DNA from: Aureliella helgolandensis
GTDB taxonomy: Bacteria; Planctomycetota; Planctomycetia; Pirellulales; Pirellulaceae
Direction: 5' to 3'
Assembly: GCF_007752135.1 (NCBI RefSeq)
Contig: NZ_CP036298.1
Location: forward strand, 1,612,001 to 1,676,000
Length of the DNA: 64,000 nucleotides
In this document: positions 11,339 to 62,298 of the stretch, in pieces
Layout: the number at the start of each line of letters is the position of its first letter
Position numbering within the stretch: position 1 is the first letter of the stretch
The notes under the pieces: generated by a model
What the model was told of the DNA's origin: nothing
What the model saw: only the letters and a program-made list of their open reading frames with translations
Database searches by the model: none
Program-made: the position numbers and the translations under genes

Positions 11339-11925
11339 GGATCGCTTAATACTTCTATGGGATTTGTCGAAAGTCAGACTTGCGGCTATTTTGGGTGGGC
11401 TGTTTGGACTGTTCGAGGTCTAACGGCAACTAGTGCACTGTAAACACAGAGGTCCTACCTAGTAAAGCGGGGTTGGAAAGTCGCCTAGCTGGATGAGGTG
11501 GAGGTTTAGGTGGTTTAGGACGCTTGTCCGCCTGCCAGTTTTCTCAGTTCCTAGCAACCTCGTATCTGCAAAAACGGAAAACCTTGCTATCCTGTGTGGT
11601 TCTGCAGGCGTAGACACTTAGTACTGCCTCCTTCTGCCCGGCGCTCGCATGCTGGGGGATGTTTGCGTGTTGGGGATATAAATGTGTCCCACAACCACGC
11701 GAGCTGGGCTGTCCCCCGGTGGGGAGGCCACTAGAAGAGGATGCACGACAAAAGTGTGATTGCCTGAAGGAACCCATGTCTGAGGCGGCATCTTTCCGAT
11801 TGTTTGGGGCTGCTTTCATCCACCAATCCCTACGGGTGGATCAATTGTCAAACAATGCAAAATGCGTACGGCAAGTACGACAGAATCAACTACCATGAAA
11901 CGGCTGTAAGTTAGGAAACTACTGG
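11339..11925. other. Intergenic region between divergent topA and SurA/PpiD-like gene
   Basis: Nearly 600 bases without a credible gene. Short frames on both strands (such as 11544-11819 and 11659-11898) lack any family feature and have atypical composition for this genome. It must contain the divergent promoters; I could not assign -35/-10 boxes with confidence. No tRNA-like fold was recognised. Confidence 0.45.
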
Positions 11926-42053: not shown

Positions 42054-42232
42054 CGGGATTGCTTGCGCGGGTAGGCTACGGCAGCTCTGTGCCGCATGGC
42101 ATGGTCTCGGCCAGGGTGTGGCAATTCTGTTGGCAGCTTGCTGCTCCCTCCCCAGCTCGCCCGGCTATCGGAGCCCTGTCTCTAGTGCGCTAGGCCTCTC
42201 GTGTGCTACGACCAGGGGAGGCTGCGGCAGCA

Positions 42233-42252
42233 CAGGTTGATTTTTCAACCTG
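42233..42252. terminator. Hairpin that may end the ATP-grasp transcript
   Basis: CAGGTTGA-TTTT-TCAACCTG, a perfect 8-bp stem with a four-T loop, about 180 bases past the ATP-grasp stop. It is not followed by a T-run, so intrinsic termination is uncertain. Confidence 0.35.
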
Positions 42253-42436
42253 CTAAATACACACGGGGAACTCCCCTAATCCACGGGTACGTGAGCGCGC
42301 CCCACAATCGCAGTTTCCAATTGAGCAGGTTGAGGTGTGGTACAATTGAGAGTTTGCCTTGCTGCCGGCGCGGTCGAGTGCGCGAACGTTGGTTCCACGA
42401 GCAATTATTATCACGATGCAGGCGAAGAGTTGGCGA

Positions 42437-42444
42437 AGGAGGAA
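42437..42444 (+). promoter_or_regulatory. Ribosome-binding site fixing the GTG start at 42450
   Basis: AAGGAGGA lies five bases before GTG 42450. This decides the start of the DUF1549/DUF1553 gene, whose frame is open about 250 bases further upstream, and places its signal peptide at the very N terminus. Confidence 0.75.
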
Positions 42445-42449
42445 TTGGT

Positions 42450-45400
42450 GTGAGCACGAGTGCCTATACAACCTTTTTATCAGTGGCGTTGTGTTTCCTC
42501 ACGATCTCTTGCGCCTGTTCATCGGAGGGAACAACGTCGAAAGTTTCCCAGGAGGAATTCTTTCGCGAGCGGGTGGCACCAATCCTTCAGCGGCGCTGTT
42601 TGAGCTGCCACAACCATGCTGAGCGCAAGGGCGATTTTTCTCTACAGTCGTTCGCCACGTTGCTTGAGAGCTCGTTTTTAGAGCCTGGTGACGCCGCAGC
42701 CAGCCACTTGATGGAGGTTATCGCTCCGTCGGCCGGGGCGCCTGAGATGCCCAAGGACTCCGATCCACTGACCGAGCAGCAAATCACAGACATTCGGACA
42801 TGGATTGACGCTGGAGCTGTATGGCCTAGCGAGTTTGAATTGGAGCCCCTAACCATCGAGGATTACGATTGGTGGTCCTACCAACCGGTCGTCGCCCCAG
42901 CCGTACCTCGCACGTCGGCCCCCTGGGGACGTACGGTAGTGGATCAATTCATCCTCAAATCGCTCAAGCAACAGGGACTAGCACCGAGCCCTGAAGCGGA
43001 TCGGCGGACTCTGATCCGACGGCTCACATTTGATTTGGTGGGGTTGCCTCCTTCACCCGCGGAGGTGGAGGAATTCGTTAACGATCCCGATCCGCTGGCC
43101 TACGAGGCCCTCGTTGACCGTTTGTTGGAATCGGAGCGTTACGGTGAGCGCTGGGCACGACATTGGTTGGACGTTGTCAAATACGCCGATACTTGTGGGT
43201 ACGATAAAGACAAGCTGCGACCCAATGCTTGGCCCTACCGAGATTACGTCATTCGCTCTTTCAATGAAGATAAGCCGTATGGGCGGTTCGTGCAGGAGCA
43301 AATTGCCGGCGATGCGCTTTTCCCGGGCACCGCCGATGGAATTTTAGGGTTGGGATTCATTGCTGCAGGACCTTGGGACTTTATCGGCCATGTGGAAGTT
43401 CCCGAGTCTAAAATTGACGGGCAAGTAGCGCGAAATCTCGATCGCGATGACATGGTATCGAACGTCTTCAACACCTTCTGCAGTGTCACCATTCAATGTG
43501 CGCGATGCCACAACCATAAATTCGATCCCATTACTCAAGAAGATTACTACGGCCTGCAAGCGATGTTTGCGGCGGTCGACCGAGCCGATCGTCCCTACGA
43601 TCTTGACCCCAGTGTTGAACGGCAGCGGCAGGAATTGGTCGCTCAGCAGCGGCAACTCAAGCAGAGTTTGCAGCAGCTCGAACAGGAGATGGCCAGCGCA
43701 GGGGGGCAACCGCTGCTTGATCTCAAGCACGAGATCGAACAATCGCACAAGAGCTTGAATCTCGAAAAGCAGCCCGCGTTCGGGTACCACAGCCAACTGG
43801 TTCAACAACCTTCCACGGAGAAGTGGATCGAGTTGCAATGCGAAACCGTCCAAGAGATTGGCACCGTAGTGCTGCATCCCTGCCACGACGACTATGCCTC
43901 CATCGGTGCGGGGTTTGGCTTTCCCATCCGTTTCAAGTTGGAAGCGGCGCGGGAGGACGGGGAGTGGCAACTACTGTTTGATCACACACAAGAGGATTTT
44001 TCGAATCCTGGACTCACGGAATTGAAGGTCGCTGTGGGGCATTGCCAAACCGATCGAATCCGTCTGACGGCAACGAAGCTGGCCGAACGCAAAGGCGATT
44101 TCTTTTTAGCGATGGCAGAGATCGAATTGTTGAACTCTAGCGGTCGATCGGTGTCGGTTGGAGCGGTGCAAGCGCTGGATTCGATTGAAGCGGCTCCCCG
44201 CTGGGCAGCTGACAATGTCCTGGATGGCGTTTGGCCAATGTATAGCGATCCCCGCGGGGCTCAGCGACTGTCGCAGGCGATGCAGGAGCGAGATGCGTTG
44301 TTGCGTGCGATAGAAACACCGGAACGCATCGCTCAGCGAACTGCTTGGCTAGCCGATCTGCAGCGCGTCGATCGCAAGTTGTCAGCCTTGCCTGCCGGTA
44401 AAATGGTATATGCGGCAGCGACGCATTTCTCGCCCCAAGGCAATTTCAAACCGACCAATGGCAAGCCAAGGCAAGTCCATGTGCTGCATCGCGGAAACGT
44501 GCAGCAACCACTGCAGGTTGCCACCCCTCGCGTCCTGAAGCTGAATTCGGGTGAGGACACGCCGTCGAACTTGGAATTGGATTCCGTGGAGGAGGAGGCG
44601 CAGCGTCGCGTTGCACTCGCCCAATGGTTGACGCGCCCCGATCATCCGCTGGTGTGGCGCTCGATCGTGAATCGCGTTTGGCAATATCATTTTGGTGAAG
44701 GCCTGGTTGCAACGCCGAACGATTTTGGCCGCATGGGGGCCCGGCCCACCCATCCCAAACTTCTCGACTGGCTCGCAGCCGACTTTCGCGACCATGGACA
44801 ATCATTCAAACGCCTGCACCGGTTGCTCGTCACCAGCAGTGTGTATCGCCAGTCCTCTCAAGGGGACGTAACGCAGGAAGCCATCGATGGAGGGAATCAG
44901 TACTGGTGGCGAATGAATCGCCGGAGATTGGCAGCGGAGGAGGTTCGCGATTCGATTCTATCGGTTAGCGGAGCTTTGAATCTCGAGATGGGAGGTCCTG
45001 GATTTTACCTGTTTGAATTGGAAAAGCCGGAGCACTCACCCCACTTCGAGTACCACAAATTTGATCCGGCCACGTCGGCTAGCCATCGCCGCAGCATCTA
45101 CCGATTCGTCGTGCGTTCGCAGCCCGATCCCTGGATGACTACCCTGGACTGTGCCGATTCGTCGCAAAGCACTCCACGTCGCACGGAAACCCTCACGTCG
45201 CTGCAAGCCCTCTCGCTGCTAAACAATCCCTTCAATCTGCACATGGCAGAGCAGTTTGCGGAGCGTGTGGGAGGCCGTACCGCTGGCGATTCGTCTGCGT
45301 CCACTCAGCCGAGCGATTCGCAGTTTGCGGAGCCCGCCGAACAATTGCAGGGGCAGGTCGAGCAGGCGTTTCGCTTAGTGACCCAACGACAGCCAAGTGA

Positions 45401-45500
45401 ATCAGAGTTGTCGGAGATGACGCACTACGCGGCCGAGCACGGTTTAGCGAATCTGTGCCGTATGTTGTTCAACTTGCATGAGTTCGTTTTCTTAGATTGA
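42450..45500 (+). CDS. Exported cytochrome-c-like protein with DUF1549 and DUF1553 (pair 1)
   Basis: A 1,016-residue planctomycete-type protein. An N-terminal export signal (TTFLSVALCFLTISCAC, possibly a lipoprotein) precedes a PSCyt1 haem domain with CLSCH at residues 50-54. DUF1549 follows ([87 protein letters not shown]) and then a beta-rich insert resembling a discoidin/F5-8C domain (about 440-570). DUF1553 closes the protein (PLVWRSIVNRVWQYHFGEGLVATPNDFGRMG...LTSLQALSLLNNPF...LFNLHEFVFLD). Function is unknown; such genes are nearly always followed by DUF1501 genes, as here, and are frequent near sulfatases. Confidence 0.93.
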   Translation: MSTSAYTTFLSVALCFLTISCACSSEGTTSKVSQEEFFRERVAPILQRRCLSCHNHAERKGDFSLQSFATLLESSFLEPGDAAASHLMEVIAPSAGAPEMPKDSDPLTEQQITDIRTWIDAGAVWPSEFELEPLTIEDYDWWSYQPVVAPAVPRTSAPWGRTVVDQFILKSLKQQGLAPSPEADRRTLIRRLTFDLVGLPPSPAEVEEFVNDPDPLAYEALVDRLLESERYGERWARHWLDVVKYADTCGYDKDKLRPNAWPYRDYVIRSFNEDKPYGRFVQEQIAGDALFPGTADGILGLGFIAAGPWDFIGHVEVPESKIDGQVARNLDRDDMVSNVFNTFCSVTIQCARCHNHKFDPITQEDYYGLQAMFAAVDRADRPYDLDPSVERQRQELVAQQRQLKQSLQQLEQEMASAGGQPLLDLKHEIEQSHKSLNLEKQPAFGYHSQLVQQPSTEKWIELQCETVQEIGTVVLHPCHDDYASIGAGFGFPIRFKLEAAREDGEWQLLFDHTQEDFSNPGLTELKVAVGHCQTDRIRLTATKLAERKGDFFLAMAEIELLNSSGRSVSVGAVQALDSIEAAPRWAADNVLDGVWPMYSDPRGAQRLSQAMQERDALLRAIETPERIAQRTAWLADLQRVDRKLSALPAGKMVYAAATHFSPQGNFKPTNGKPRQVHVLHRGNVQQPLQVATPRVLKLNSGEDTPSNLELDSVEEEAQRRVALAQWLTRPDHPLVWRSIVNRVWQYHFGEGLVATPNDFGRMGARPTHPKLLDWLAADFRDHGQSFKRLHRLLVTSSVYRQSSQGDVTQEAIDGGNQYWWRMNRRRLAAEEVRDSILSVSGALNLEMGGPGFYLFELEKPEHSPHFEYHKFDPATSASHRRSIYRFVVRSQPDPWMTTLDCADSSQSTPRRTETLTSLQALSLLNNPFNLHMAEQFAERVGGRTAGDSSASTQPSDSQFAEPAEQLQGQVEQAFRLVTQRQPSESELSEMTHYAAEHGLANLCRMLFNLHEFVFLD

Positions 45501-45511
45501 GTTTCGTAAGC

Positions 45512-46951
45512 ATGTTTGACCGCCGACAATTTCTTTCCGATTGCGGTGCCGGCTTGGGTGGCCTGGCGCTGTCGACGATGTTGCATCAAGCCGCTGAGGG
45601 GGCAGGTGCAGTCAAAGTACTTCATCACCCCCCTAAAGCTCGGCGAGTCGTGCAGCTGTTTATGGCGGGTGGCGCAAGTCACATGGACTTGTGGGATCAC
45701 AAGCCGATGCTCGAGAAACACCATGGCGAAGAAGCCGATTTTGGTGAGCCGGTGGAAGCCTTCCAAGACGGCTTAGGACCTTGGATGAAGTCCCCGTTTG
45801 CCTTCGCCCCCTATGGGCAAGCGGGGAAGATGCTGAGCGAAGTCGTGCAACCGCTGGGAGCTTGCGTAGACGACATCGCCTTCATTCACAATATGGTCAG
45901 TACGACTGGGGTCCATTCCCAGGCAACGTACTTGCAGGCCACCGGATTTCAGTTGCCGGGGTTCCCCGGTATGGGCTCCTGGGTAAGTTACGGGCTTGGA
46001 GCGATTACCGACAACTTGCCGACGTTCGTCGTCTTGCCTGATCATCGTGGGTTTGCCAGCAATGGTCCGAAGAACTGGGCGTCGGCGTTCCTGCCTGCCA
46101 GCGCGCAGGGGACAGCTATTTTTCCGCAGCGTGAAAACGCCATCGAAGATCTGCAGGCGCGGGCCGATTTCGTGACCGAACAAGGCGACCGGGCTGGCTT
46201 GTCCTTGCTCAAACGCCTTAACTCGCAATATTCGGCTCAACGCGCCGAGGATTCACGACTGGACGCACGCATCCGCTCCTACGAACTGGCGGCCCGGCTG
46301 CAATTGAGTGCTCCCGAGGCGCTCGACCTCTCCCAGGAACCGGCGCATGTCATGAAAATGTACGGACTCGACCGCCTGGGTGCCACTTACCCCTCCGAGA
46401 TCAATCCAGCCGAAGAGGCCGAGTACTTTGGACGCAAGTGTTTGATCGCGCGGCGTCTGCTGGAACGTGGCGTGCGGTTTGTACAGGTCTGGTCGGGGAA
46501 CGACAATAGCTTCCCCCGCCGCAATTGGGATAGCCATGAAGACATCGCTCGCGATCACGGGCCGCTAGCGCGGGGTATGGCTGTGGGGGCAGCAGCCTTA
46601 TTGAAAGACCTCAAGCAATCGGGAATGTTGGACGACACGATCGTGCTGTGGACCACCGAGTTCGGACGGATGCCCAGTACTCAAGGATCCACGGGGCGTG
46701 ACCACAATCCATTCGTGTTTACCAATTGGCTAAGTGGTGGTGGGATCCAGGGAGGTATCAGCCATGGAGCCTCTGATGTCTGGGGATACAAGCCCCTTGA
46801 TCGAGATAATCCGACGCAAGTGTACGATATTCATGCAACGATTCTGCACTTGCTGGGAATTGACCACCGTCGATTGACCGTGCGAAACAATGGCATCGAC
46901 CGCCGCCTGACCGACGTTCATGGGCATGTGATCCATCAAATCCTGGCTTAA
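45512..46951 (+). CDS. DUF1501 protein with Tat signal (pair 1)
   Basis: A 479-residue protein of the DUF1501 family, which has an alkaline-phosphatase/sulfatase-like fold. The N terminus MFDRRQFLSDCGAGLGGLAL is a Tat signal, so the folded protein is exported. Motifs include [100 protein letters not shown] and the C terminus RLTDVHGHVIHQIL. ATG 45512 is 11 bases after the stop of the DUF1549/1553 gene; a TTG at 45497 would overlap that stop. The two are surely cotranscribed. Substrate unknown. Confidence 0.94.
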   Translation: MFDRRQFLSDCGAGLGGLALSTMLHQAAEGAGAVKVLHHPPKARRVVQLFMAGGASHMDLWDHKPMLEKHHGEEADFGEPVEAFQDGLGPWMKSPFAFAPYGQAGKMLSEVVQPLGACVDDIAFIHNMVSTTGVHSQATYLQATGFQLPGFPGMGSWVSYGLGAITDNLPTFVVLPDHRGFASNGPKNWASAFLPASAQGTAIFPQRENAIEDLQARADFVTEQGDRAGLSLLKRLNSQYSAQRAEDSRLDARIRSYELAARLQLSAPEALDLSQEPAHVMKMYGLDRLGATYPSEINPAEEAEYFGRKCLIARRLLERGVRFVQVWSGNDNSFPRRNWDSHEDIARDHGPLARGMAVGAAALLKDLKQSGMLDDTIVLWTTEFGRMPSTQGSTGRDHNPFVFTNWLSGGGIQGGISHGASDVWGYKPLDRDNPTQVYDIHATILHLLGIDHRRLTVRNNGIDRRLTDVHGHVIHQILA

Positions 46952-47110: not shown

Positions 47111-48487
47111 CTATGCCTCCCCGGGTTTGTATTCGCTTCTTGGCTTTTGCATCAGCTTGTATTTCTTCGGTCTTCGCTTGAGCACCCTGGGCTCGTAGCG
47201 GTCCGGTCGATTGCCAACTGCGTGTTGCAAGCAGCAGCGGTACAACACAGTGCATAATTCATCGGCGTTGCTGATTAGGCCTAGAACCGGAAGCATATCC
47301 GTCACCGTTGTCAGTGTTGACTTGAAACTGATATGCCAAGGTTGAACGTCGCCTTCGACGGCCGCTTCAGACATCACCCCGCGAATCAAATTGTAAGCCA
47401 ACATGTGCGTCCGAATTTCGTTCCGCACTCGATGCGGCTTTTTACAGCGCAAGTGTTCCATCTGCATGACCGTTTTCAAGCTCCGTAAATGAAGTTCTGC
47501 TTGCCACCTTCTACGGAACAGGGCCGCGATGTCCTCCCTCGTGTACTCCGTATCGTCCGACAGCGATGTGTGAACGATAATCTCGCGAGTGCGAAATCCG
47601 TTGTTCTCAACTCGGATACGGATCTCGCGAATGGTGATGAAGTCCGGGTACGTCTCGTACTCTTCAATGCTCATCCAGTCGGGACGAGCTGGCTTGTCGA
47701 TTTGGATGGAGTGATCGTCTTTGCCGTAACGAATTCCAGTCCGAAAATCTGACTTGCGCAACTGGTGTTTGCGAACAACGACGTGTGCACCACGTTGAAT
47801 CATCCTCGCCATCTCGAACCAACCCGCATAGGCGCGATCAGCTAGGAAAACATCGGTTTCTTCGATGATTGCGTCGATCTGACGAAACAAACTTACTTCG
47901 TGAGTGAACTTACCTTTGTATCGGCCCATCGCCATGTCGAGCACAACGCCAGTCGACAACGCGAACAGTACAACGACTCGCAAGATCGGAAATCCACAAC
48001 CGGGTGCTTGACTACTAAGTTGCGGGTAGGCGGCTTGATTCTCCGACGTGTCTGCCATCGTGACGGTGGCACCATCGGCGGTGATCACGCGGTGCCCCAG
48101 CCATCGCCAATGGTCGGGACTGCTGTCTTCAATCGCAAGTCCGCTGGCCGTCACAAGACGTTGCATGGATTGCTCGTCGATTTTGTCTCGAGCAATGCAG
48201 TAAGCACCGGTTTCGGCAGAGCAAGCAGTTTGGTTGTTGGCGACTCGATGGGTGATCAGCTTGGCGACCGCAGAGACGCAGCCGTGGTGGATGCTCATGA
48301 CTTGCGAGAGGAAGACCCACAGCGTGACCGATGTGTTGTAAACTCTGGCCGAATCGAGAATGGCACTTGCATTGCCAAAGACTGACGCGATAGTCTCTTT
48401 GGAGATCAAGGCGGCGAAGTAAAGATCGCCGTGTTGGCGCGCATGTTGGACTCGACAGCGGAACGAATCAAACGGATGATGGCACAC
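47111..48487 (-). CDS. IS4-family transposase
   Basis: A 458-residue DDE transposase, apparently intact, beginning at GTG 48487. It shows ADGATVTMADTSENQ (first Asp), DVFLADRAYAGWFEMARMI (second Asp) and the IS4 YREK-type signature near LFRRRWQAELHLRSLKTVMQMEHLRCK, where the spacing R-x3-E-x6-K is exact and Phe replaces the usual Tyr. The N-terminal part (FYFAALISKETIASVFGNAS, VWVFLSQVMS-like LWVFLSQVMSIHHGCVSAVAKL) matches long IS4-group proteins common in Rhodopirellula and relatives. Base composition is slightly lower in GC than the neighbouring genes. The stop lies three bases inside the left inner repeat. Confidence 0.92.
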   Translation of the reverse strand: MCHHPFDSFRCRVQHARQHGDLYFAALISKETIASVFGNASAILDSARVYNTSVTLWVFLSQVMSIHHGCVSAVAKLITHRVANNQTACSAETGAYCIARDKIDEQSMQRLVTASGLAIEDSSPDHWRWLGHRVITADGATVTMADTSENQAAYPQLSSQAPGCGFPILRVVVLFALSTGVVLDMAMGRYKGKFTHEVSLFRQIDAIIEETDVFLADRAYAGWFEMARMIQRGAHVVVRKHQLRKSDFRTGIRYGKDDHSIQIDKPARPDWMSIEEYETYPDFITIREIRIRVENNGFRTREIIVHTSLSDDTEYTREDIAALFRRRWQAELHLRSLKTVMQMEHLRCKKPHRVRNEIRTHMLAYNLIRGVMSEAAVEGDVQPWHISFKSTLTTVTDMLPVLGLISNADELCTVLYRCCLQHAVGNRPDRYEPRVLKRRPKKYKLMQKPRSEYKPGEA

Positions 48488-51096: not shown

Positions 51097-52071
51097 TTAA
51101 TTCTTGTATTCTTGTTGCCGTTGGTCGCCTTGATTCTTAACTTTTTCCAAGATCTGCTTCTTGCTCTCCTGCAATCGACTGGGCCACTCGAATTTTGGGG
51201 CTAGGGCTGGATCGTAGCCGGTGAGGTGCCCGGTGAGCCGGGTCGCTGGCTTGGTATACGACAATTCGGTCGTACCGAAGACCTCTTCGCATATGGCAGC
51301 GAGCCCTGGATCGTATTCCTTCAATTCCTTCCGCGTATCGACATGGTTGTGGTCGTGATCTGGCTGTCGATTGTTATCGAACCATGATTGGACACCTTCG
51401 GCAAAGTACTCGGCATGATTGGTGGATGCGTACTTTCCCTTCCACAGGCCTTGAGCCACCGCGTGATCATAGGTTTGCTGGAGACGGCCATCGAAAGTGG
51501 GGTCCAAATTCACCATGCCTCGCAAGTGGATGTTGTGCGCGAATTCATGAATCAGAATATTCTCGGTGGAATAGGGATCGCCGGTGAACGCCAGCAGGTT
51601 CTCTTCGGCGCAAGAGCAAACCGAGTCTTGCAGAGAGCCACCGAGTCCTCGGGCGCGTGCATCCCAGTAGTCTTTGGGACTCAGGTGAGCGTGCTCGGGA
51701 ATGTCTGTGGTGAACTCGTCGTGCGCCATGACAATCATTCGCGAATCATGTTCAACCATCGTTTTTCGAAGATCGGGGCGTTGGGCGAGCATCATGTCGA
51801 TTAAGTAAGCGGCTTCCTTGAGGGCGTAGTCGTTCACTTTTTCGGAGCTGATGATGGGATAGCCGCTGGCATTGACGTACTTGCGGTAGAACGGCGCCAG
51901 TTGCATGGACTCCGGCGGCTGCTCGACCCGGTACACCTGAGCGGATTCAGGGGCACTGGAAGATGCTTGGGAGGTGTCTTGCCAGGGCCGTGGTTCGGCT
52001 CTTATTGGCTGCGGCATGGTCAGCAGGGCAAGGCTTAGTAATGGTAAAACGGGACGGGGAATGCAGGGCAT
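51097..52071 (-). CDS. Secreted putative zinc metallopeptidase (HExxH)
   Basis: A 324-residue exported protein with a signal peptide at residues 1-25 (PVLPLLSLALLTMPQPIRA). The motif ILIHEFAHNIH (HEFAH at 175-179) fits a gluzincin-type zinc site, and STNHAEYFAEGVQSWFDNN about 50 residues later supplies a conserved Glu and a helix typical of the third ligand. I do not recognise the family by name; similar proteins occur in planctomycetes. It may degrade or process extracellular proteins. It precedes the metallophosphoesterase on the same strand. Confidence 0.78.
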   Translation of the reverse strand: MPCIPRPVLPLLSLALLTMPQPIRAEPRPWQDTSQASSSAPESAQVYRVEQPPESMQLAPFYRKYVNASGYPIISSEKVNDYALKEAAYLIDMMLAQRPDLRKTMVEHDSRMIVMAHDEFTTDIPEHAHLSPKDYWDARARGLGGSLQDSVCSCAEENLLAFTGDPYSTENILIHEFAHNIHLRGMVNLDPTFDGRLQQTYDHAVAQGLWKGKYASTNHAEYFAEGVQSWFDNNRQPDHDHNHVDTRKELKEYDPGLAAICEEVFGTTELSYTKPATRLTGHLTGYDPALAPKFEWPSRLQESKKQILEKVKNQGDQRQQEYKN

Positions 52072-52507: not shown

Positions 52508-54961
52508 TCAAAGCTGCAATGCTGCTGGGGGGATCTTGCTTTGGAAGCCTTCAATAACGGATTGCTGCTGGGGATCGCCCGACAAATCGGTCCATTCGTT
52601 GGGATCCTTGTTGAGGTCGTAGAGTTCTTGGGTGCCGTCCTGGTATTGAATGTACCGCCAGCGATCGGACCGCAGTGACACGTTGCCGGGATCAAAGGAT
52701 GTGACCACCACTCGCTCGGTGACTTGGGCTGGTTCGCGTAGCAGCGGAAGGAGACTCTGACCATCCATCGCGTGCGGTGCGGGTACTTGGCAAAGTTCGG
52801 TGAGGGTGGGATAGAGGTCAATCAAACCCACGGGGCTGTGGCAGCGTTGGCCAAGGTTGGGGTATTGTTCGGTCCTGTTTTTCGGGGGAACGATCGCGAG
52901 TAGAACCCGTGTCGAGCGTTCCCATCCCGTCCATTTGCCCCAATGCTGCTTCTCCCCCAAGTGCCACCCGTGATCGCTCCATAGGACAATGGTTGTGTTT
53001 TCGCCGTACTCGCTGTTATCCAGTGCATCCAATAGGCGTCCAATTTGCGCATCGACAAAGGTGGTGCAGGCCAAGTAGGCCTTGACCGCTTCCTCCCACT
53101 GGTCATGTTCGACAACCGTCGAGTGTAACCCAGCGGTTATCGCCTCCAAGGCCCACCGCCGGCTGGTCCCGTTGAGATCGTCCAAGTCCGAATTGGAGTA
53201 GGCAGGTCGTTGGACGGTCTTCCCTTCGAAGCGTGAAAAGTACTTTTTCGGAGCCCATAGAGGGATGTGCGGGCGGTAGAAACCGACGCCTAGAAAGAAG
53301 GGCCGTTGGTGGGAAGCTTGCAGCTGTTCAATGGCCCAGCTCGCACTCTGCGCGTCGCCCATTGCCGAGTCGGGGACGTCGATTGGTCCCCAATCGAACG
53401 ATTCTCCGCCCGGCGTATCGGGCCTCCGGTCCGAGGGCATGCCGTTCAATGGGAGAATGACTCTTGGAGGACCTTTGACTACGTGGCGCGGCGAGCTTGT
53501 CCGCTTGGAAGGTAGTTCTTGGTCACTGTAGTCGACGGCTCGCCGGGTGAAGGGACTCCAACGCTGTTCAACGTTGAAATGCTCTTGAAACAAGATGCGA
53601 TTGTCTGCAGCGCTGGAGTGCATCATCTTTCCCGTCCCGAGCGTGTGGTAACCTGCTTGGCCAAAGGCTTGGGGGAGTGTTTGGATTTGGGGATGTTGAG
53701 CAAACAGCTTTCGGCTGTCATTGGACCAGACGCCAGTATTCCATGGCATTTGACCACTGAAGAGGGCCGCCCGGGAAGGGTTGCACGCTGGGGAGGCGCA
53801 GTGCGCGTTTGTAAATAAAACGCCTCGCTTCGCCAGTCGATCAATGTGAGGTGTTTCCGCTTGCGGATGCCCTCCGAGGCATCCCACCCAGTCGTTCAAA
53901 TCATCGACGGCGATAAACAGAATGTTGGGAGCGGAGCGGCTCGAAGTGCTTTCGCGATTGACCCATTCTTGCCAATCCTGCGCAACGCGACTGCCGGAGG
54001 TTCCGTACCACGCGTATCCATTGCGTCTCTCCGGCTCGATCTCCGCCACATCGTATTTGATGATGCCATCGCGACCACTGAAAATGGGGCGATTGGTTTC
54101 GATCTCGTAGAACCGAGCCCATAGTGGCGGCGCGTTGGGATCGTGGATGACCTTGCGCTCGCCGTCGATTTCCTCATAACGAATTCCGGTTAGTTGCGCC
54201 GCTTCAAACCATTTCACCGCAGCTTCAATTGCTGTGCGAACTGCCTCCGACGGCTTCTCAATCGTCATGAGGAGTCTTGCGATCCCGGCGCTCTCACTGC
54301 CGCTGAGCGATGGGTGTTCGTAGGCCCGCGCTTTAGCCGCTTGGAGTGTTTCCCGGTCGTGCTGTGCACACCAGGCGGTCAATTGCCCATCGACTTTAAT
54401 CTGGCAATCGAGAATGCACTGGACACCTTGGTCGAAGGCATCTCTTGCTCGTTGGCGAGTGGCTGGGGAGACGAAGTCGTACAGCTCTTTTTCCGCAACC
54501 TCACGGAGGAAGGTCATCAGCCCTACCATGGTGCCGTCGTTGAAGGTGATGTGTTGCGAGTAGCCCCGTGGTTGCGGTCTTTGCGGCCAGCCGCCGTTGC
54601 TGTATTGGGCATTGAGGATCGCGTCGAGGCCGGCTTGGAATGCCGTCTGGTACCGGCTGTCATGAGTTGCCTGGAAGGCGAGTGCCAGCAGCTGCAATTC
54701 ATTCAGCGTGGCCCGATTATCAAAGGTTCCTTGCAGGTCCTGACGCTCTCCCGCGTAGGGTTGTTCGGAGGTGTCGAGATTCTTCGGCCAAGCCCCTGCA
54801 GGACTTTGGTGCGACAGTACATTGTCCAGTCGCTGGCGACCGGCGTCGGAGTGAAACCACGCGTCCGGTTGCTTGAGATGATCACGAATTTGGGCGGAGG
54901 CGATTGAAGTGCCCAGGAACACTCCAAGGCAAGCCAGCAGCCAGCGTTTCACGGGTGTCAT
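52508..54961 (-). CDS. Pectate lyase (PL10-like)-sulfatase fusion
   Basis: A secreted two-enzyme protein, 817 residues from ATG 54961 (AAAGG upstream; an ATG at 55024 is in frame but precedes the signal). Signal peptide RWLLACLGVFLGTSIASAQ. Residues about 35-335 match family 10 pectate lyases: WPKNLDT, FDNRATLNELQLLALAFQATHD, AQYSNGGWPQRPQP, ITFNDGTMVGLM, and the terminal RNGYAWYGT region. Residues about 344-805 are a sulfatase: NILFIAVDDLNDWVGCLGGHP (metal Asp pair), the formylglycine motif CNPSR at Cys393, GYHTLGTGKMMH, VGFYRPHIPLWAPKKY, and TTIVLWSDHGWHLGEKQHWGKW. The iduronate-2-sulfatase-like branch is suggested. Predicted to depolymerise and desulfate a sulfated uronate-containing polysaccharide. 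Confidence 0.88.
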   Translation of the reverse strand: MTPVKRWLLACLGVFLGTSIASAQIRDHLKQPDAWFHSDAGRQRLDNVLSHQSPAGAWPKNLDTSEQPYAGERQDLQGTFDNRATLNELQLLALAFQATHDSRYQTAFQAGLDAILNAQYSNGGWPQRPQPRGYSQHITFNDGTMVGLMTFLREVAEKELYDFVSPATRQRARDAFDQGVQCILDCQIKVDGQLTAWCAQHDRETLQAAKARAYEHPSLSGSESAGIARLLMTIEKPSEAVRTAIEAAVKWFEAAQLTGIRYEEIDGERKVIHDPNAPPLWARFYEIETNRPIFSGRDGIIKYDVAEIEPERRNGYAWYGTSGSRVAQDWQEWVNRESTSSRSAPNILFIAVDDLNDWVGCLGGHPQAETPHIDRLAKRGVLFTNAHCASPACNPSRAALFSGQMPWNTGVWSNDSRKLFAQHPQIQTLPQAFGQAGYHTLGTGKMMHSSAADNRILFQEHFNVEQRWSPFTRRAVDYSDQELPSKRTSSPRHVVKGPPRVILPLNGMPSDRRPDTPGGESFDWGPIDVPDSAMGDAQSASWAIEQLQASHQRPFFLGVGFYRPHIPLWAPKKYFSRFEGKTVQRPAYSNSDLDDLNGTSRRWALEAITAGLHSTVVEHDQWEEAVKAYLACTTFVDAQIGRLLDALDNSEYGENTTIVLWSDHGWHLGEKQHWGKWTGWERSTRVLLAIVPPKNRTEQYPNLGQRCHSPVGLIDLYPTLTELCQVPAPHAMDGQSLLPLLREPAQVTERVVVTSFDPGNVSLRSDRWRYIQYQDGTQELYDLNKDPNEWTDLSGDPQQQSVIEGFQSKIPPAALQL

Positions 54962-55123
54962 CGTATTGCCTTTGGAGAGGAGAGGCTTGGCAGGCAGTGG
55001 GCTAGGAATAGAACCCTCAACCAAAACGATCTTCTGCTTGCATTTCTGTTATAAACAGTTGCAGGATTCCCGAGAACAAGATCTTCTCGAATCGTTTCTC
55101 CAGGATAACACAGTTTGAATTCT

Positions 55124-56566
55124 ATGGTGAACACAAGACTTGCCCAATTGCTTGCGATCAGCAGCGTGTTTTTCGGTCTACTCGCTTCTGCTGGGAGAGC
55201 TGCCGAACCGGCGAGCCCAGAACGGCCCAATATTGTGCTGATCATGGCTGATGACGTTAGTTGGGAAGCCTTTGGGTGTTATGGCGCGGAAGAATATGCG
55301 ACGCCTCATCTCGATGCGCTCGCCGCAGGGGGAGTGCGATTCACGCATTGCTATTCAACACCTATTTGCACCACCAGTCGTGTTGAATTGATGACTGGCA
55401 AGTACAGTTTTCGGAACTACACGCATTTTGGATACCTCGATCCCCAGCAAAAGACTTTTGGCCATTTGCTCAAGCAAGCTGGCTACGAGACCGCAATTGC
55501 AGGCAAGTGGCAATTGAACGGCTTGTACAATAGTTTGCCAGGTCACGAGGACAGCAACCGTCCAGTGCAAGCCGGTTTTGACCAGTTCTTACTCTGGCAA
55601 TTGACGCGTGGCAGGCAGGAGAGTGATGGAGGTGGAGAGCGGTTTTGGAATCCTGTCTTGGAGCACAATGGACGCCTGCTAACTAGCCAAGAGAATGCCG
55701 GAAAATTTGGGCCTGATCTGCTGTGTGATTTCGTCTGCAATTTTATTCAGCAGCCAAGAGAGGCCGCCTTCTTCGTCTACTATCCCATGGTCCTAGTCCA
55801 TGATCCTTTTGTGCCGACGCCCGACACGATTGGTGACGCGGATCGAGCGACAGCCAACAAGCCCAAAGCCAGAGACAAGAAACGCAACTTCGTGGCTATG
55901 GTGAACTACATGGATAAATTGGTCGGTCGCATTGTTGACGAGCTGGAGACGAGTGGGCAGCTGGAAAATACGCTCCTTCTGTTTACCGCCGACAATGGAA
56001 CGAATCGGTCGATTACGTCGCAGTGGCAGGGACGGAGCATTCGTGGTGGTAAGGGAGGGATGACGAATATGGGAACGCATGTTCCTTTGATTGCAAGTTG
56101 GAAAGGCCGGACGGTCGCCGGATCCGTGGTGGACGAGCTGGTCGACTTCACCGATTTCTATCCTACGCTAGCGGCGGCTGCGGGCGTGGGGTTGGATGCC
56201 ACCGATCCGGTGGATGGCTATAGCTTTCTGAGCTCCATCGTCGGAGAATCCACCGTCGGAGAATCGAGCAAGGTGCGCCCGGCAGTCTTCCTGCACTATC
56301 AGCCCTATTGGAATCAGCTTCCTGGTCAATTTGCGCGCACTCAGCAATATAAACTCTATCGAGACGGGCGTTTTTTTGACGTCAGCCGAGATCTGGAGGA
56401 ACTCTTACCTTTGCAGCAGGAGTCGCTGGAGGAATCGGCCCGAGACGTACGGCAGAAGCTACAGCAACTCTTGGATCAGGCGCCGGAAGTACCTCTTGGA
56501 AAACGAGGAGGAAACTCGGGACCGCGCCCCATCCATCCAGATTGGAGTAGACTAGTTGGAGAGTGA
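55124..56566 (+). CDS. Secreted sulfatase with atypical CTTSR motif
   Basis: A 480-residue S1-type sulfatase. Signal peptide at residues 1-28 (AQLLAISSVFFGLLASAGRAA), then NIVLIMADDVSWEAFGCYGAEEYATPHLDALAAGGVRFTHCY. The formylglycine position is Cys82 in CTTSR, where the consensus has Pro or Ala at the third position. Metal and substrate motifs ETAIAGKWQL, VYYPMVLVHDPFVPTP, LLLFTADNGTNRSI and the Lys/His region GKGGMTNMGTHVPLIA are present. ATG 55124 is preceded by an in-frame TTG at 55115. Divergent from the lyase-sulfatase gene, about 160 bases apart, so shared regulation is likely. Confidence 0.9.
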   Translation: MVNTRLAQLLAISSVFFGLLASAGRAAEPASPERPNIVLIMADDVSWEAFGCYGAEEYATPHLDALAAGGVRFTHCYSTPICTTSRVELMTGKYSFRNYTHFGYLDPQQKTFGHLLKQAGYETAIAGKWQLNGLYNSLPGHEDSNRPVQAGFDQFLLWQLTRGRQESDGGGERFWNPVLEHNGRLLTSQENAGKFGPDLLCDFVCNFIQQPREAAFFVYYPMVLVHDPFVPTPDTIGDADRATANKPKARDKKRNFVAMVNYMDKLVGRIVDELETSGQLENTLLLFTADNGTNRSITSQWQGRSIRGGKGGMTNMGTHVPLIASWKGRTVAGSVVDELVDFTDFYPTLAAAAGVGLDATDPVDGYSFLSSIVGESTVGESSKVRPAVFLHYQPYWNQLPGQFARTQQYKLYRDGRFFDVSRDLEELLPLQQESLEESARDVRQKLQQLLDQAPEVPLGKRGGNSGPRPIHPDWSRLVGE

Positions 56567-56789
56567 TTCCCGCTAGCCGTTCCCATCTACTCCTTCGAGA
56601 CCGCTGGCAAGTGGCTGCACAATATTATCGCAGCCCGATTATCGCAGCCCGCTGCGTCGCATGGGGGGCGTTGCGTGGCACTCGAAGTTCGCCCTCAACA
56701 TTCATCGATCCATTTGGTAAAATGAATGGTCCAACCCGCCGCATTTGCCCCACATCCCCCGTAGGGCCCACCTATTTTTGAGTTGTCTA

Positions 56790-59700
56790 ATGTCCTGCCG
56801 CCTTGCCGCGTTGCTATTCTTGTGCCTGGTCCCCAGAGCTTTCGCGTTGGAGCCACCGCAGCTTGAGTTCTTTGAGGCTCGCATTCGTCCCGTTCTGGTC
56901 GAGTACTGCTATGAATGCCACAATTCGACCGACTCTACAGAAGCTGGACTTGCGCTGGATTATCGCGGGGGCATTTTAGAAGGCGGCGCTGGCGGCGCGA
57001 GTGTTTCGCTGGAGTCACCAGCATCCAGTTTGCTATTGGAGGTGATGCGGCATGACATCGATGGACTTGAAATGCCGCAAGGGGGACCGAAGCTTGAGCC
57101 TGAGATCTTAGCTGATTTTGAAAAATGGATTGGGATGGGACTTCCCGACCCACGCTCGGAGCCTCCCTCGGAATCCGAAATGGAGCAGTCCCAATCCTGG
57201 GAGTCGACTCTGAAACGTCGGCAGCAGTGGTGGAGCTTCCAACCGATTCAATCCATTGAGCCGCCCGCTTCGGTGGTCAGTGAGCGAGCAGGTGAGGTGT
57301 TGTCTCACCCGGTCGATCGATTCATTGATAAGAAGTTGCAGCAGGAGGATTTGGAGTTGGCCCCATTGGCCGAACCAACTGTTCTCGTGCGTCGCGTGTA
57401 TTACAGTCTGTTGGGGCTCCCCCCTACCGTCTCCGAAACCTTGCACTGGACATCGCGACTCGAGACCACCTCCCGCAGCGAACGCGATGCTGCCTGGGAA
57501 GCTCTAGTCCAGGAGTTGTTGGAACGCCCGCAATTCGGAGAGCGCTGGGCGAGGCATTGGATGGACTGGATTCGCTATGCAGAATCGCATGGTAGTGAAG
57601 GGGATCCAGCGATCGATCATGCATGGCTTTATCGCGACTATCTAATTCGGGCGTTGAATGCAGACGTTCCTCTCGACCAACTGTTGCGCGAGCACCTGGC
57701 GGGTGACCTGCTGGCGGCACCGCGAATCAATGAGGAGCTGAGAATCAACGAGTCGGCCATTGGTCCGGCGCACTTGCGGATGGTTTTTCATGGCTTTGCC
57801 CCCACCGATGCTATGGAAGAGAAGGTGCGTTTCACCGATGACCAAGTCAACGTTGTCTCCAAGGCTTTCTTGGGGCTGACGGTTTCCTGCGCCCGCTGCC
57901 ACAACCATAAATTTGATCCGATTAGTCAAGCTGACTACTACGCCATGTTCGGCATGCTGGGAGCTTGCCAGCCCGGCAGAACCGTGATCGATTTGCCGGA
58001 AGTCCAACAGCTCCATAGCCTCGCCCTGCAAGAACTGAAAACTCAACTTCGACCGGCACTTGCGCAGGATTGGCTCGCTAGTCTAGAGCGGCTGCCCCAG
58101 CGGCTGCTCCACGATACCGAGCTCCTTGCTCGTGCCGAGCAAGCGGATTCGATTCTGCGTCCCTTGGGGCAGCTCCTCAAGTCCCAAGACTCGGCGGCCG
58201 AGCTATCGGAAGCATGGCAAAAACTGGCTGCGGATCAAGCGACGCGCGCCAGCGCTTGGGCGAGCACGGAACAGGCGGAATACCTGCCGGCCTGGGATTT
58301 GGCGGAGGAACGCGACTACGCAACCTGGTTCCCCAAGGGGTTCGGGCTAGCCAGTTCGACTCCTGCTACTGCCGGAGAGTTCTCTGTGGCGGTGGACGGA
58401 ACGCAGGCTCTTACCGGAATCTATCCCTCCGGCGTGTACACCCATCAACTCAGTACCAAACACCCGGCTCGGCTTAGCTCGCCCAAGTTCTCGGTCGAGG
58501 ATGGTTCTGAGCTGTGGGTCTATAGTTGCGGATCTCCGAATGCCAGCCTGCGGTATGTCGTCCAAGACTACCCTCGCAATGGAACAGTTTATCCGGTCAA
58601 ACAACTGCAGCCGCAGTGGAAGTGGCAGCAATTCGATGTGGGCTACTGGAGTGGCGATCAATTGCATATCGAATTGGCTGCAGCTCAGGATGCTCCGCTG
58701 CTGGTTAAGTCGGATGACCGTTCGTGGTTTGGAGTGCGGGCTGCCGTGGTCCGCGCTACTGGGCAACCCGCTCCAGTAGAATCCGCCGAGCACTGGCAAC
58801 CGATCTTCGACGTGGCCAACGGGGCCGTTCCTACGACCACTGCGGAGGTTGCCAGACTGTACTGCGAAGCAATTCGCCGCGCCCTTGAAAATTGGAATGC
58901 CGGGAGTTGTAGCGAGGCCGAAGCGTTGCTGCTCGACGCCTGCCTACGCGAAGGCCTGTTGGCCAATCAGCTCGAGTCCCTGCCACTTGCTGAGCCAATA
59001 CTCCTGCAATATCGAACGCTGGAAAACGAAATTCCAATTCCAACTCGAGTGCCTGGGGTGGATGAAACCGTTGCGGCAGAGCAACCCTTGTTCGTGCGTG
59101 GCGACCACAAGCTGCTGGGCGAAATGGTGCCCCGGCGATTTTTGGAGGCGTTCGATGCGACTCCGTATCAATCGCGACAGAGCGGTCGACTTGAGTTCGC
59201 AGAGGATTTGCTGCGCGATGACAACCCACTCACGCGTCGCGTTTTAGTGAACCGCATTTGGCATCACTTGTTCGGGCAGGGAATTGTCCGAACTCCCGAC
59301 AATTTCGGACGCTTGGGAGATCTGCCCAGCCATCCTCAACTTCTCGATTACCTGGCGTTGCGATTTGACGAGCAGGGGTGGTCGGCCAAAGAATTGATTC
59401 GCTTTATCGTGACCTCCCAAACGTGGCAAGCAAGCTCGCAGGGGACCCCGCGAGCGTCGGAAGTCGATCCTGAAAATCGCTGGCTCTCTCACGCCAACGT
59501 ACGGCGTCTGGAGGCTGAAGCCATTCGTGATTCCATCTTGCAAGCGTCCGGAGGCCTCGATCTGCGGATGTTTGGTGAGCCTCAATCGAATACTCTGACG
59601 AGACGGAGTGTCTATGGGAACGTAATCCGCAATGCGTTAGATCCCTTCCTGCGAGTTTTTGATTTTCCAGAGCCCTTTAGTGCGGTTGGACGTCGGGATG

Positions 59701-60878
59701 TTACCAATGTGCCTGCCCAGTCCCTAACCATGCTCAACGATCCGCAGATTGACCGCTACGCAACTGACTGGGCGGAAAACTTGCTGGCCAACCCTGAGCT
59801 GAGCACTTTGGAACAACGCGTTCAGCAGATGTTCCTGGAATCCTTGAATCGGCCCGCCAGTCCGTCGGAAGTGGAGAGGCTCACTGAGTACCTGCACAAC
59901 TATCGAGGTGTCCTGGAGCAGGAGCTAAGGCAGGTCGCTGAACTCACCCTGAAACGAGAACAACGCGAACGCGAGTTAGCCAACATCCTCCAGCCAGTTC
60001 GGCAGCGACTCGAGGCAGAACTGAAGACCGCACGCGTCGCTGAGCCACCATTGCCTGTCCCGCTACCGATCGCCAGTTGGCAGTTCGAACAAGACGCTAC
60101 CGATGCGATCGGAGGGATGGACTGTAAACTGCAGGCAGACGCCGCGTTGCAGGATGGACGCCTGAGAGTCCAAGGGGGCGGTTATGCCGTCACTAGCACT
60201 TTGTCTCAGGATGTGAGTGTTAAAACGCTCGAAGCGTGGGTGCAGCTCGATCGACTGGACCAACGCGGCGGTGGAGTCATGTCGCTCCAAAGTCGCAATG
60301 GTGGCGTGTTCGATGCGATTGTTTTCGGAGAACAGAATCCGCGAGAATGGTTGGCGGGCAGCAACAGCTTTTCCCGTACCCAGGCATTTGCCGGCGCGGT
60401 AGAGTCGGACGCGCAAGAAAGACCCGTTCATGTGGCAATCGTCTACCATGCAGACGGACGCATTGTGGGGTATCGCAATGGCGAACCCTATGGCCAGCCC
60501 TACATGAGTGACGGGCCGACGCGATTCGAGGCGGGCGATGCCGTGGTCAGCTTCGGCGTGCGGCACTTGCCTGCTAGCGGAAATCGGCTGCTAAGCGGTG
60601 CGATACTGGGGGCCAATCTGTACGATCAAGCTCTGTCAGAAACTCAAATTGCCTACACGTCCCTGGCTGGGCCATGGATCGTGACCGATCGGCAAGTCCG
60701 GCAGGCGTTGTCGGAGAGCGATCAAGCCCTGGCCACACAGTTGAGGGAGGAGATCGAGCAACTTCGGCTCAGCTCCCAGGCGTTGCACGAGAAGTTGCCT
60801 CAAGATCTAGACGTTGGCATGTGGACTGCGTTGGCGAAAACCATTTTTACTCTCAAGGAATTTATCTATGTTCGTTAG
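56790..60878 (+). CDS. Cytochrome-c-like DUF1549/DUF1553 protein with LamG insertion (pair 2)
   Basis: A 1,362-residue exported protein from ATG 56790 (signal [17 protein letters not shown]). The PSCyt1 haem motif CYECH is at 40-44. DUF1549 ([89 protein letters not shown]) is followed by an unassigned beta-rich region, then DUF1553 ([48 protein letters not shown]). Near the C terminus a coiled coil and a LamG/concanavalin-like domain ([16 protein letters not shown]...[24 protein letters not shown]...[21 protein letters not shown]) are inserted before the last DUF1553 segment ([19 protein letters not shown]). The LamG module suggests carbohydrate binding. Confidence 0.93.
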
Positions 60879-62298
60879 ATCTCCACGACGCCAATTCCTT
60901 GAGCGATGTTCGACTGGCTTCGGCGCTATGGCTTTGAGCGGCTTGCTCCAGCAGGGGGCGACGGCTCAAACCGCTCTGCCCGCCTCCGCCGCACTGGCTC
61001 AAACACATCATCCCGCCAAAGCCAAGAGCGTCATTTTTTGTTACATGTCCGGCGGAGTGTCGCATGTCGATTCGTTCGATCCCAAGCCCGCCTTGGAGAA
61101 GTACCACGGGCAACCGATGCCGGTCAAAGTGGAACGGACACAGTTCAACAACAATGGGAATGTGCTCGCCAGTCCCTTTAAGTTTTCCCCGTCAGGGGAA
61201 TCGGGCCTGCCCATCAGCGACATGTTCCCACACATCGCTGCTGAAGCCGACGAATTGGCTGTGATACGTTCCATGACCACTTCAGTCAATGAGCATGCAC
61301 AGGGCAATTTCGCTATGCACTCCGGGTTTCCCTTCATGGGATTTCCAAGCGCGGGGGCCTGGGCCAGCTATGGACTGGGCAGCGAAAATGAGAACTTGCC
61401 TAGCTATGTCGTGCTCCAAAGTGGAACTGCAGTGCCGCCGCATGGTGGTGTCAGTTTGTTTAGCAATGGATTCCTCCCTGCACAGCATCAAGGTTCGATT
61501 CTCAAAGCCGATCGGCCAGAAGCGATTCGCAATGTGAGCCCCTATGATACGGTCAGCATTCAACAGCAACGCTTGCAGTTGGCTAGTGAGTTTGATGCGG
61601 AATTTCTAGCCAGGACAAATGCTGATGCGCAGGTTGACGCGGCTATTCGGAACTACGAAACCGCGTTTCGCATGCAGGCCGCCGTCCCTGATTTGTGTGA
61701 TATCTCTCAGGAGACTCGACAGACTCGGGAAATGTATGGCTTGGATGCAGAGGTGCCCGAGAAGGCGGCCTACGCGCGACAGTGCTTGCTAGCACGGCGA
61801 ATGGTGGAACGCGGCGTGCGGTTTATTGAGCTCAGTTGCCTTTCCCAGGGGATCGGCGCCGGCGGAGCGGCAAATCCTTGGGATCAACATAGCGATGTGG
61901 AAAAGGGACACCGTGCGATGGGGTTCCAAGTCGATCAGCCTATCGCCGCCTTGATCAAGGACTTGCGTCAACGTGGTTTACTGGACGAAACGCTCATCGT
62001 GTGGGCCGGAGAATTCGGCCGCACTCCGTTTTCGCAAGGCAGCACCGGTCGCGATCATAATCCATTCGGCTTTAGCGTGTGGCTAGCTGGTGGCGGCGTG
62101 CAAGGAGGATGCAGCTTGGGAGCCACCGATGAGTTTGGCTACCATGCCATTGAGAATCCTTGCACTGTCTATGACTTGTGGGCGACGGTACTGCATCAGT
62201 TGGGCATTGATCATGAACGACTGACGTACCGCTACAGTGGACGCGACTACCGGCTAACTGACGTTCATGGCAATGTGTTGCACAAAGTGCTAGCCTAA
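60868..62298 (+). CDS. DUF1501 protein with Tat signal (pair 2)
   Basis: A 476-residue DUF1501 protein. ATG 60868 overlaps the previous gene by 11 bases and has AAGGAA at good spacing, giving translational coupling. Tat signal [27 protein letters not shown]. Motifs parallel pair 1: [98 protein letters not shown] and [15 protein letters not shown]. It is the partner of the LamG-containing DUF1549/1553 protein; substrate unknown, but sulfatases lie directly upstream. Confidence 0.95.

Follow-up and report, generated by a model that had tools for sequence, protein, structure and literature searches.

Several enzymes are known in which a carbohydrate-active domain and a sulfatase occupy one polypeptide. 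In P36 of Formosa agariphila an S1_25 sulfatase is joined to a GH78 domain, and the two are described, in the available excerpt of the report, as taking consecutive steps on ulvan oligosaccharides (PMC8511951); the structure record 6hr5 is likewise named 'Alpha-L-rhamnosidase/sulfatase (GH78)'. Multi-domain sulfatases are also reported for the planctomycete Porphyra isolates P1 and P2, with an alginate lyase among the partners, and a fusion to PL10 or to a pectate lyase is not mentioned in the accessible portion of that account (PMC4807772). Pectate is the substrate of the PL10 enzymes that have been characterised to date, and for Pel10A the part of the source at hand gives Asp451 as a Ca ligand and Arg524 as the base, together with Glu535 (PMC10992409). 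The S1_7 sulfatase subfamily, according to an extract of the paper concerned, includes both iduronate-2-sulfatase and endo-4S-kappa-carrageenan sulfatase (PMC5066984).

We describe here a gene of Aureliella helgolandensis, located in a 64,000-nucleotide stretch of its genome (the window), in which a PL10 pectate lyase domain and a formylglycine (FGly)-type sulfatase domain form one chain that is predicted to be exported. It is like P36 in joining a carbohydrate-cleaving domain to an FGly sulfatase, but the cleaving domain is a lyase rather than a glycoside hydrolase, the sulfatase is of another subfamily, and the substrate to be expected of the lyase is pectate rather than ulvan. With the P1 and P2 sulfatases, so far as the excerpt describes them, it shares the joining of a sulfatase to other domains.

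The fusion gene and its junction

The A. helgolandensis fusion is a single open frame of 817 amino acids with no internal stop. Its parts and its divergent neighbour are as follows.

52508..54961, minus strand: PL10-sulfatase fusion gene, from the ATG at 54961 to its end at 52508, stop codon included
54893..54961, minus strand: putative Sec signal peptide, residues 1-23, assigned by eye from the sequence
53984..54808, minus strand: PL10 pectate lyase domain, residues 52-326 (PF09492 and TIGR02474)
53930..53953, minus strand: spacer ESTSSRSA, residues 337-344 (the 1r76 PL10 alignment ends at 336 and PF00884 starts at 345)
52790..53929, minus strand: FGly-type sulfatase domain, residues 345-724 (PF00884, E = 5.7e-45; solved relatives 6hhm, 5fql and 6ioz)
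53771..53785, minus strand: formylglycine motif CNPSR, residues 393-397
52532..52957, minus strand: SGSH_C C-terminal sulfatase region, residues 669-810 (PF16347, E = 3.4e-12)
55115..56566, plus strand: second sulfatase, 483 amino acids, divergent neighbour of the fusion (PF00884, E = 1.2e-45; motif CTTSR)

Two complete domains lie in a single frame, as expected of a CAZyme-sulfatase fusion. An earlier sequence-only reading had proposed a PL10 lyase and a Cys-type sulfatase in one exported chain, and the Pfam and NCBIfam domains within one frame bear this out; export is predicted from a basic start, a hydrophobic core and the residues ASA before Gln24, all recognised by eye. The short Ser-rich linker of about ten residues that it described measures eight residues, four of them Ser, and the only omission in its observation was the strand of the gene, which is minus.

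A missed stop codon or a sequencing error at residues 335-345 had been singled out as the hazard for this architecture, and the fusion survives inspection on that point: there is no stop or frameshift around these residues, both domains are complete and in the same frame, and GC3 stays level from one side of the junction to the other (0.57-0.72 per 60 codons). Stand-alone sulfatase homologues, which reach 68% identity, have an N-terminal hydrophobic leader of their own that immediately precedes PN(I/V)LF, and separate PL10s terminate near the point at which the spacer begins, so that the fusion lacks exactly one stop (that of the PL10) and one leader (that of the sulfatase). An error would therefore have had to remove the stop, the intergenic region and the whole leader, and yet to keep the frame. 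Given the uninterrupted frame and its uniform codon composition, we reject a missed stop codon or a sequencing error at the domain boundary, and an assembly error at the junction, judged from the assembly alone (a single 8.44-Mb contig, 99.82% complete), is unlikely. The PL10-sulfatase fusion is genuine.

The lyase and sulfatase halves

PF09492 (Pec_lyase) matches residues 52-326 over profile positions 1-291 of 292 (E = 5.8e-101; 338 bits against a cut-off of 22), and TIGR02474, the NCBIfam pectate-lyase equivalog, scores 311.6 bits against a curated cut-off of 189.8 (E = 6.2e-93). The HMM match to PL10 on which the proposal had been staked beforehand is thus present. In the alignment with Pel10A (1gxm), Asp142, Arg212, Glu223 and Asp81 correspond to Asp451, Arg524, Glu535 and Asp389, the last of which we take to be the fourth key position of PL10. 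Pel10A and PelA (1r76) are alike to the fusion in domain length, in these four catalytic or structural positions and in TIGR02474, but their chains cover only residues 42-327 and 29-336 of it, respectively, and leave the sulfatase half unmatched. The structure model of the fusion has pLDDT below 50 over residues 208-342, where the underlying alignment misplaces the PL10 rows, and is silent on the (alpha/alpha)3-barrel fold typical of PL10 as well as on packing; the short spacer does not imply that the two active sites are close, as had been suggested.

PF00884 matches residues 345-724 with 154 bits against a cut-off of 25, over profile positions 1-299 of 301, and the motif CNPSR conforms to the C-x-P-S-R pattern of FGly-dependent (S1) sulfatases. 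The stretches DD, GK..H, RPHIP and SDHGW..GE...W.K, at residues 353, 442, 560 and 661, align with those of 6hhm and 5fql; the roles that we assign to single residues within these metal-binding and catalytic stretches are presumed ones. The nearest solved structures (5fql, 6ioz and 6hhm) are of iduronate-2-sulfatase or S1_7-like type and share PSR, DD, GK..H, PH(I/L)P and SDHG...GE...W.K with the fused half, but unlike the fusion the matched chains have no PL10 part. We take 6hhm, the record of which reads 'Arylsulfatase', to be the S1_7 sulfatase that acts on ulvan in Formosa. These nearest solved sequences point to an S1_7-like assignment, and since S1_7 covers both iduronate-2-sulfatase and endo-4S-kappa-carrageenan sulfatase, the resemblance leaves the substrate unfixed. 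There are four FGE-family matches in the genome, candidates for maturing the sulfatase half. As judged by alignment, the catalytic positions are conserved in both halves.

Search for other fusions

The whole protein was compared with 60 relatives, and 80 loci were kept from a genome-contig collection. Among the matches listed for the 60 relatives, each covers one half of the protein or the other and never both; a second PL10-sulfatase fusion is absent from the 80 loci, and none of 644 matching plasmid records covers 80% of the protein. Phyla outside Planctomycetota entered through the genome-contig collection and the plasmid records only. PL10 models matched 105 of 392 genomes at the level of the phylum (E <= 0.001), 66 of 397 in the class (E <= 1e-40) and 59 of 241 in the family (E <= 1e-30), and a PL10 model of our own matched 29 of 396 in the order (E <= 1e-100), counts that are not additive because the four sets overlap. 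All strong listed PL10 matches in frames of at least 700 amino acids, from all four surveys, were fetched and scanned for sulfatases (in-house HMM, E <= 1e-4), with weak matches (roughly 80 bits and below) left out. Among 122 distinct PL10 domains, some of which may be truncated at contig ends and could conceal fusions, only that of the window has a sulfatase in the same frame.

The rarity claimed for the fusion therefore holds, the search for the same architecture in other genomes having turned up no second case among these domains, and a wider family of PL10-sulfatase fusions finds no support in the relatives, the genome-contig loci and the phylum, family, order and class surveys. Among the papers listed in searches of the open-licence PMC literature, no title or abstract opening names such a fusion. 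It is so far unique among the proteins examined, CAZyme-sulfatase fusions as a class being already known.

Both halves occur elsewhere as separate proteins, and both are found with other partners. Six long PL10 frames analysed with Pfam contain a Sde182_NH-like domain (two), BNR (two) or PL10 alone (two), and in all the PL10 fusions noted are with Sde182_NH-like (L143, L192 and L195), GDSL (L121) and BNR (L193 and L245) domains. Close relatives of the fused sulfatase are joined to an Exo_endo_phos domain (L016 1462-3771, minus strand) and to a 3-keto-disaccharide hydrolase domain (L018 760-3195, minus strand). The variety of partners on both sides indicates that these bacteria commonly shuffle domains, and the PL10-sulfatase pairing is so far a single instance of it.

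Sulfatases beside related PL10 genes

The window PL10 clusters with seven Rubripirellula PL10s (FastTree support 0.998 with 95 domains and 0.975 with 105). Six of these have a sulfatase on the same strand, 54-181 bp upstream, with frames taken from stop to stop; the seventh (L213) is 76 bp from a contig end on its upstream side, and its neighbour is unreadable.

L081 9929-12533: Rubripirellula sulfatase-PL10 gene pair (also in L211, L212, L214, L215 and L217)

In L081 the two genes of the pair lie at 9929-11296 and 11412-12533; a subtilase-PDZ gene comes after them, and beyond it are one gene each of the PSCyt/DUF1549-DUF1553 and DUF1501-like types. The sulfatases of the pairs are 69-82% identical to each other, are of the CSPTR type and, in the two compared, share about 24% identity with the fused sulfatase. 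The pairs resemble the fusion in that a sister PL10, 57-60% identical to that of the window, has a sulfatase close by, but they consist of two separate genes, with the sulfatase upstream rather than downstream and of a different type. The low sulfatase identity and the opposite gene order rule out the fusion being a collapsed Rubripirellula pair.

Outside this clade, a sulfatase is found within 1 kb of 4 of 79 PL10s that have at least 2.5 kb on both sides, a count that stood at 1 of 64 before the addition of 18 loci chosen mainly for their long PL10 frames. L244, the PL10 that comes next outside the clade, lacks a sulfatase over a distance of about 7.7 kb. By a crude estimate, a random gene-sized interval in the A. 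helgolandensis genome has a sulfatase within 300 bp at a frequency of 0.7%. The genome encodes about 100 sulfatases (101 of 110 matches were judged good), so that a chance encounter of a PL10 with a sulfatase is not very rare; for its other PL10 (C1:5982621) the closest sulfatase is 3 kb away, on the opposite strand. Since the Rubripirellula pairs come from one genus and share an ancestor, we treat them as a single event. The window provides another, in which a different type of sulfatase is fused and a third sulfatase lies divergently alongside. These sequence comparisons support reading the tendency of this type of PL10 to work with sulfatases as real, and the clade-level proximity of sulfatases to the sister PL10s supports lyase-sulfatase coupling in the clade.

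The relatives of the fused sulfatase give a different picture. No PL10 lies near them in any of 53 other loci (those whose sulfatase scores 500 bits or more against that of the fusion), and in 10 of the 53 another sulfatase is present within 400 bp. Ten neighbour proteins were scanned, and GH95, 3-keto-disaccharide hydrolase, PSCyt, carbamoyl-phosphate synthase and phosphofructokinase are among them; with contexts so mixed, and without a PL10, conserved partner genes around these sulfatases are rejected. The coupling of depolymerisation and desulfation proposed by the sequence-only reading is accordingly upheld from the side of the lyase, where the sister Rubripirellula PL10s stand directly behind a sulfatase gene, but not from the side of the sulfatase, whose relatives are never beside a PL10.

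Discussion

We favour a model in which the protein is an exported two-activity enzyme, both halves of which act on one sulfated pectin-like (galacturonan) polymer, and we give this a probability of about 0.5. The PL10 half would make internal cuts in a backbone rich in galacturonate, with Arg212 acting as the base in a Ca-assisted beta-elimination. Conversion of Cys393 to formylglycine would activate the C-terminal sulfatase half, which would take sulfate esters off that polymer or off the freshly released oligosaccharides, and backbone cutting and desulfation would then occur in one particle. The P36 enzyme of Formosa offers a direct precedent for two such domains working one after the other. 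We infer the activity of each half, their common glycan and its identity as a sulfated galacturonan.

The substrate proposed earlier, a sulfated uronic-acid polysaccharide perhaps from algae, is not established: the characterised PL10s act on pectate, as far as the partial source goes, and the contexts of the sulfatase relatives are mixed; an algal origin is a guess. Sulfated homogalacturonan was not found in the literature searched, the available parts of which mention sulfated galactans and, separately, apiogalacturonans. Among pectin-type genes sought in the genome there are only one GH28 and two GH88/105 matches, none of them in the window. We also consider, as a rather doubtful extension of the shared-polymer model, that the PL10 clade comprising the window species and Rubripirellula is specialised on sulfated galacturonan of aquatic plants or microalgae, and that the fusion is its most compact form, with both halves on the same polymer. 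To our knowledge, no degradation pathway has been described for the sulfated pectin of aquatic plants or microalgae.

There are three other ways to account for the fusion. One that we regard as possible is a neutral or regulatory fusion by deletion, in which the two halves share secretion and expression and act on different glycans of one mixed diet. The free shuffling of these domains (the sulfatase with Exo_endo_phos and 3-keto-disaccharide hydrolase, the PL10 with Sde182_NH-like, GDSL and BNR), the occurrence of the fusion in one genome only, and the mixed, PL10-free neighbourhoods of the sulfatase relatives are all consistent with it. However, chance fusion does not predict an adjacent sulfatase in all six readable cases of the sister PL10 clade, and the catalytic positions are kept in both halves. 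It is unlikely, in our judgement, that the lyase half has exchanged pectate for a different uronic polymer, one resembling ulvan, a glycosaminoglycan or an exopolysaccharide, from which the sulfatase removes the 2-O- or 3-O-sulfate. The best solved sulfatase relatives, 6hhm and iduronate-2-sulfatase, would suit such a substrate, as would the span of S1_7 noted above, but the PL10 half lies above the TIGR02474 equivalog cut-off and keeps the four tested Pel10A positions, and we know of no ulvan or glycosaminoglycan lyase that belongs to PL10. That an assembly or base-calling error joined two genes would fit the occurrence of the fusion in one genome only but is highly improbable, since the fusion lies in a single complete contig, with even GC3 and a clean in-frame junction of a kind that no single-base error could give.

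Returning to the shared-polymer model, the pattern of a PL10 beside a sulfatase in the sister clade is the part most deserving of test, and the conserved Rubripirellula pair offers an independent set of proteins that bears on the same idea. If both halves do share a polymer, the protein would lend itself to probing for a pectin-like glycan that carries sulfate, with two products, unsaturated galacturonate ends and free sulfate, reporting on one substrate, and lyase-sulfatase coupling in one chain would take its place beside the known GH78-S1_25 ulvan enzyme.

The divergent sulfatase at 55115-56566 is only 27-30% identical to the Rubripirellula PL10-adjacent sulfatases, and its position suggests an association with the fusion. 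In its motif, CTTSR, a Thr replaces the usual Pro or Ala (four relatives have CSPSR, CTPTR, CGPSR and CTPTR), and to judge from this motif the enzyme may be poorly matured or inactive. Two pairs of cytochrome-type and DUF1501-type genes flank the region, at 42201-46951 and 56745-62298 (plus strand); the second consists of a PSCyt1-PSCyt2-PSD1-LamG gene (56745-60878) and a DUF1501 gene (60814-62298), and the first was assigned by homology. A DDE_Tnp_1 transposase gene (47111-48487, minus strand) lies about 4 kb from the 3' end of the fusion and is a possible agent of local rearrangement. Directly downstream of the fusion, 51097-52071 (minus strand) encodes a weakly M90-peptidase-like protein (PF06167 just below cut-off), homologues of which (66-72%) occur in four Rubripirellula loci (L054, L059, L060 and L063), with an S1_7-like sulfatase about 5-6 kb away.
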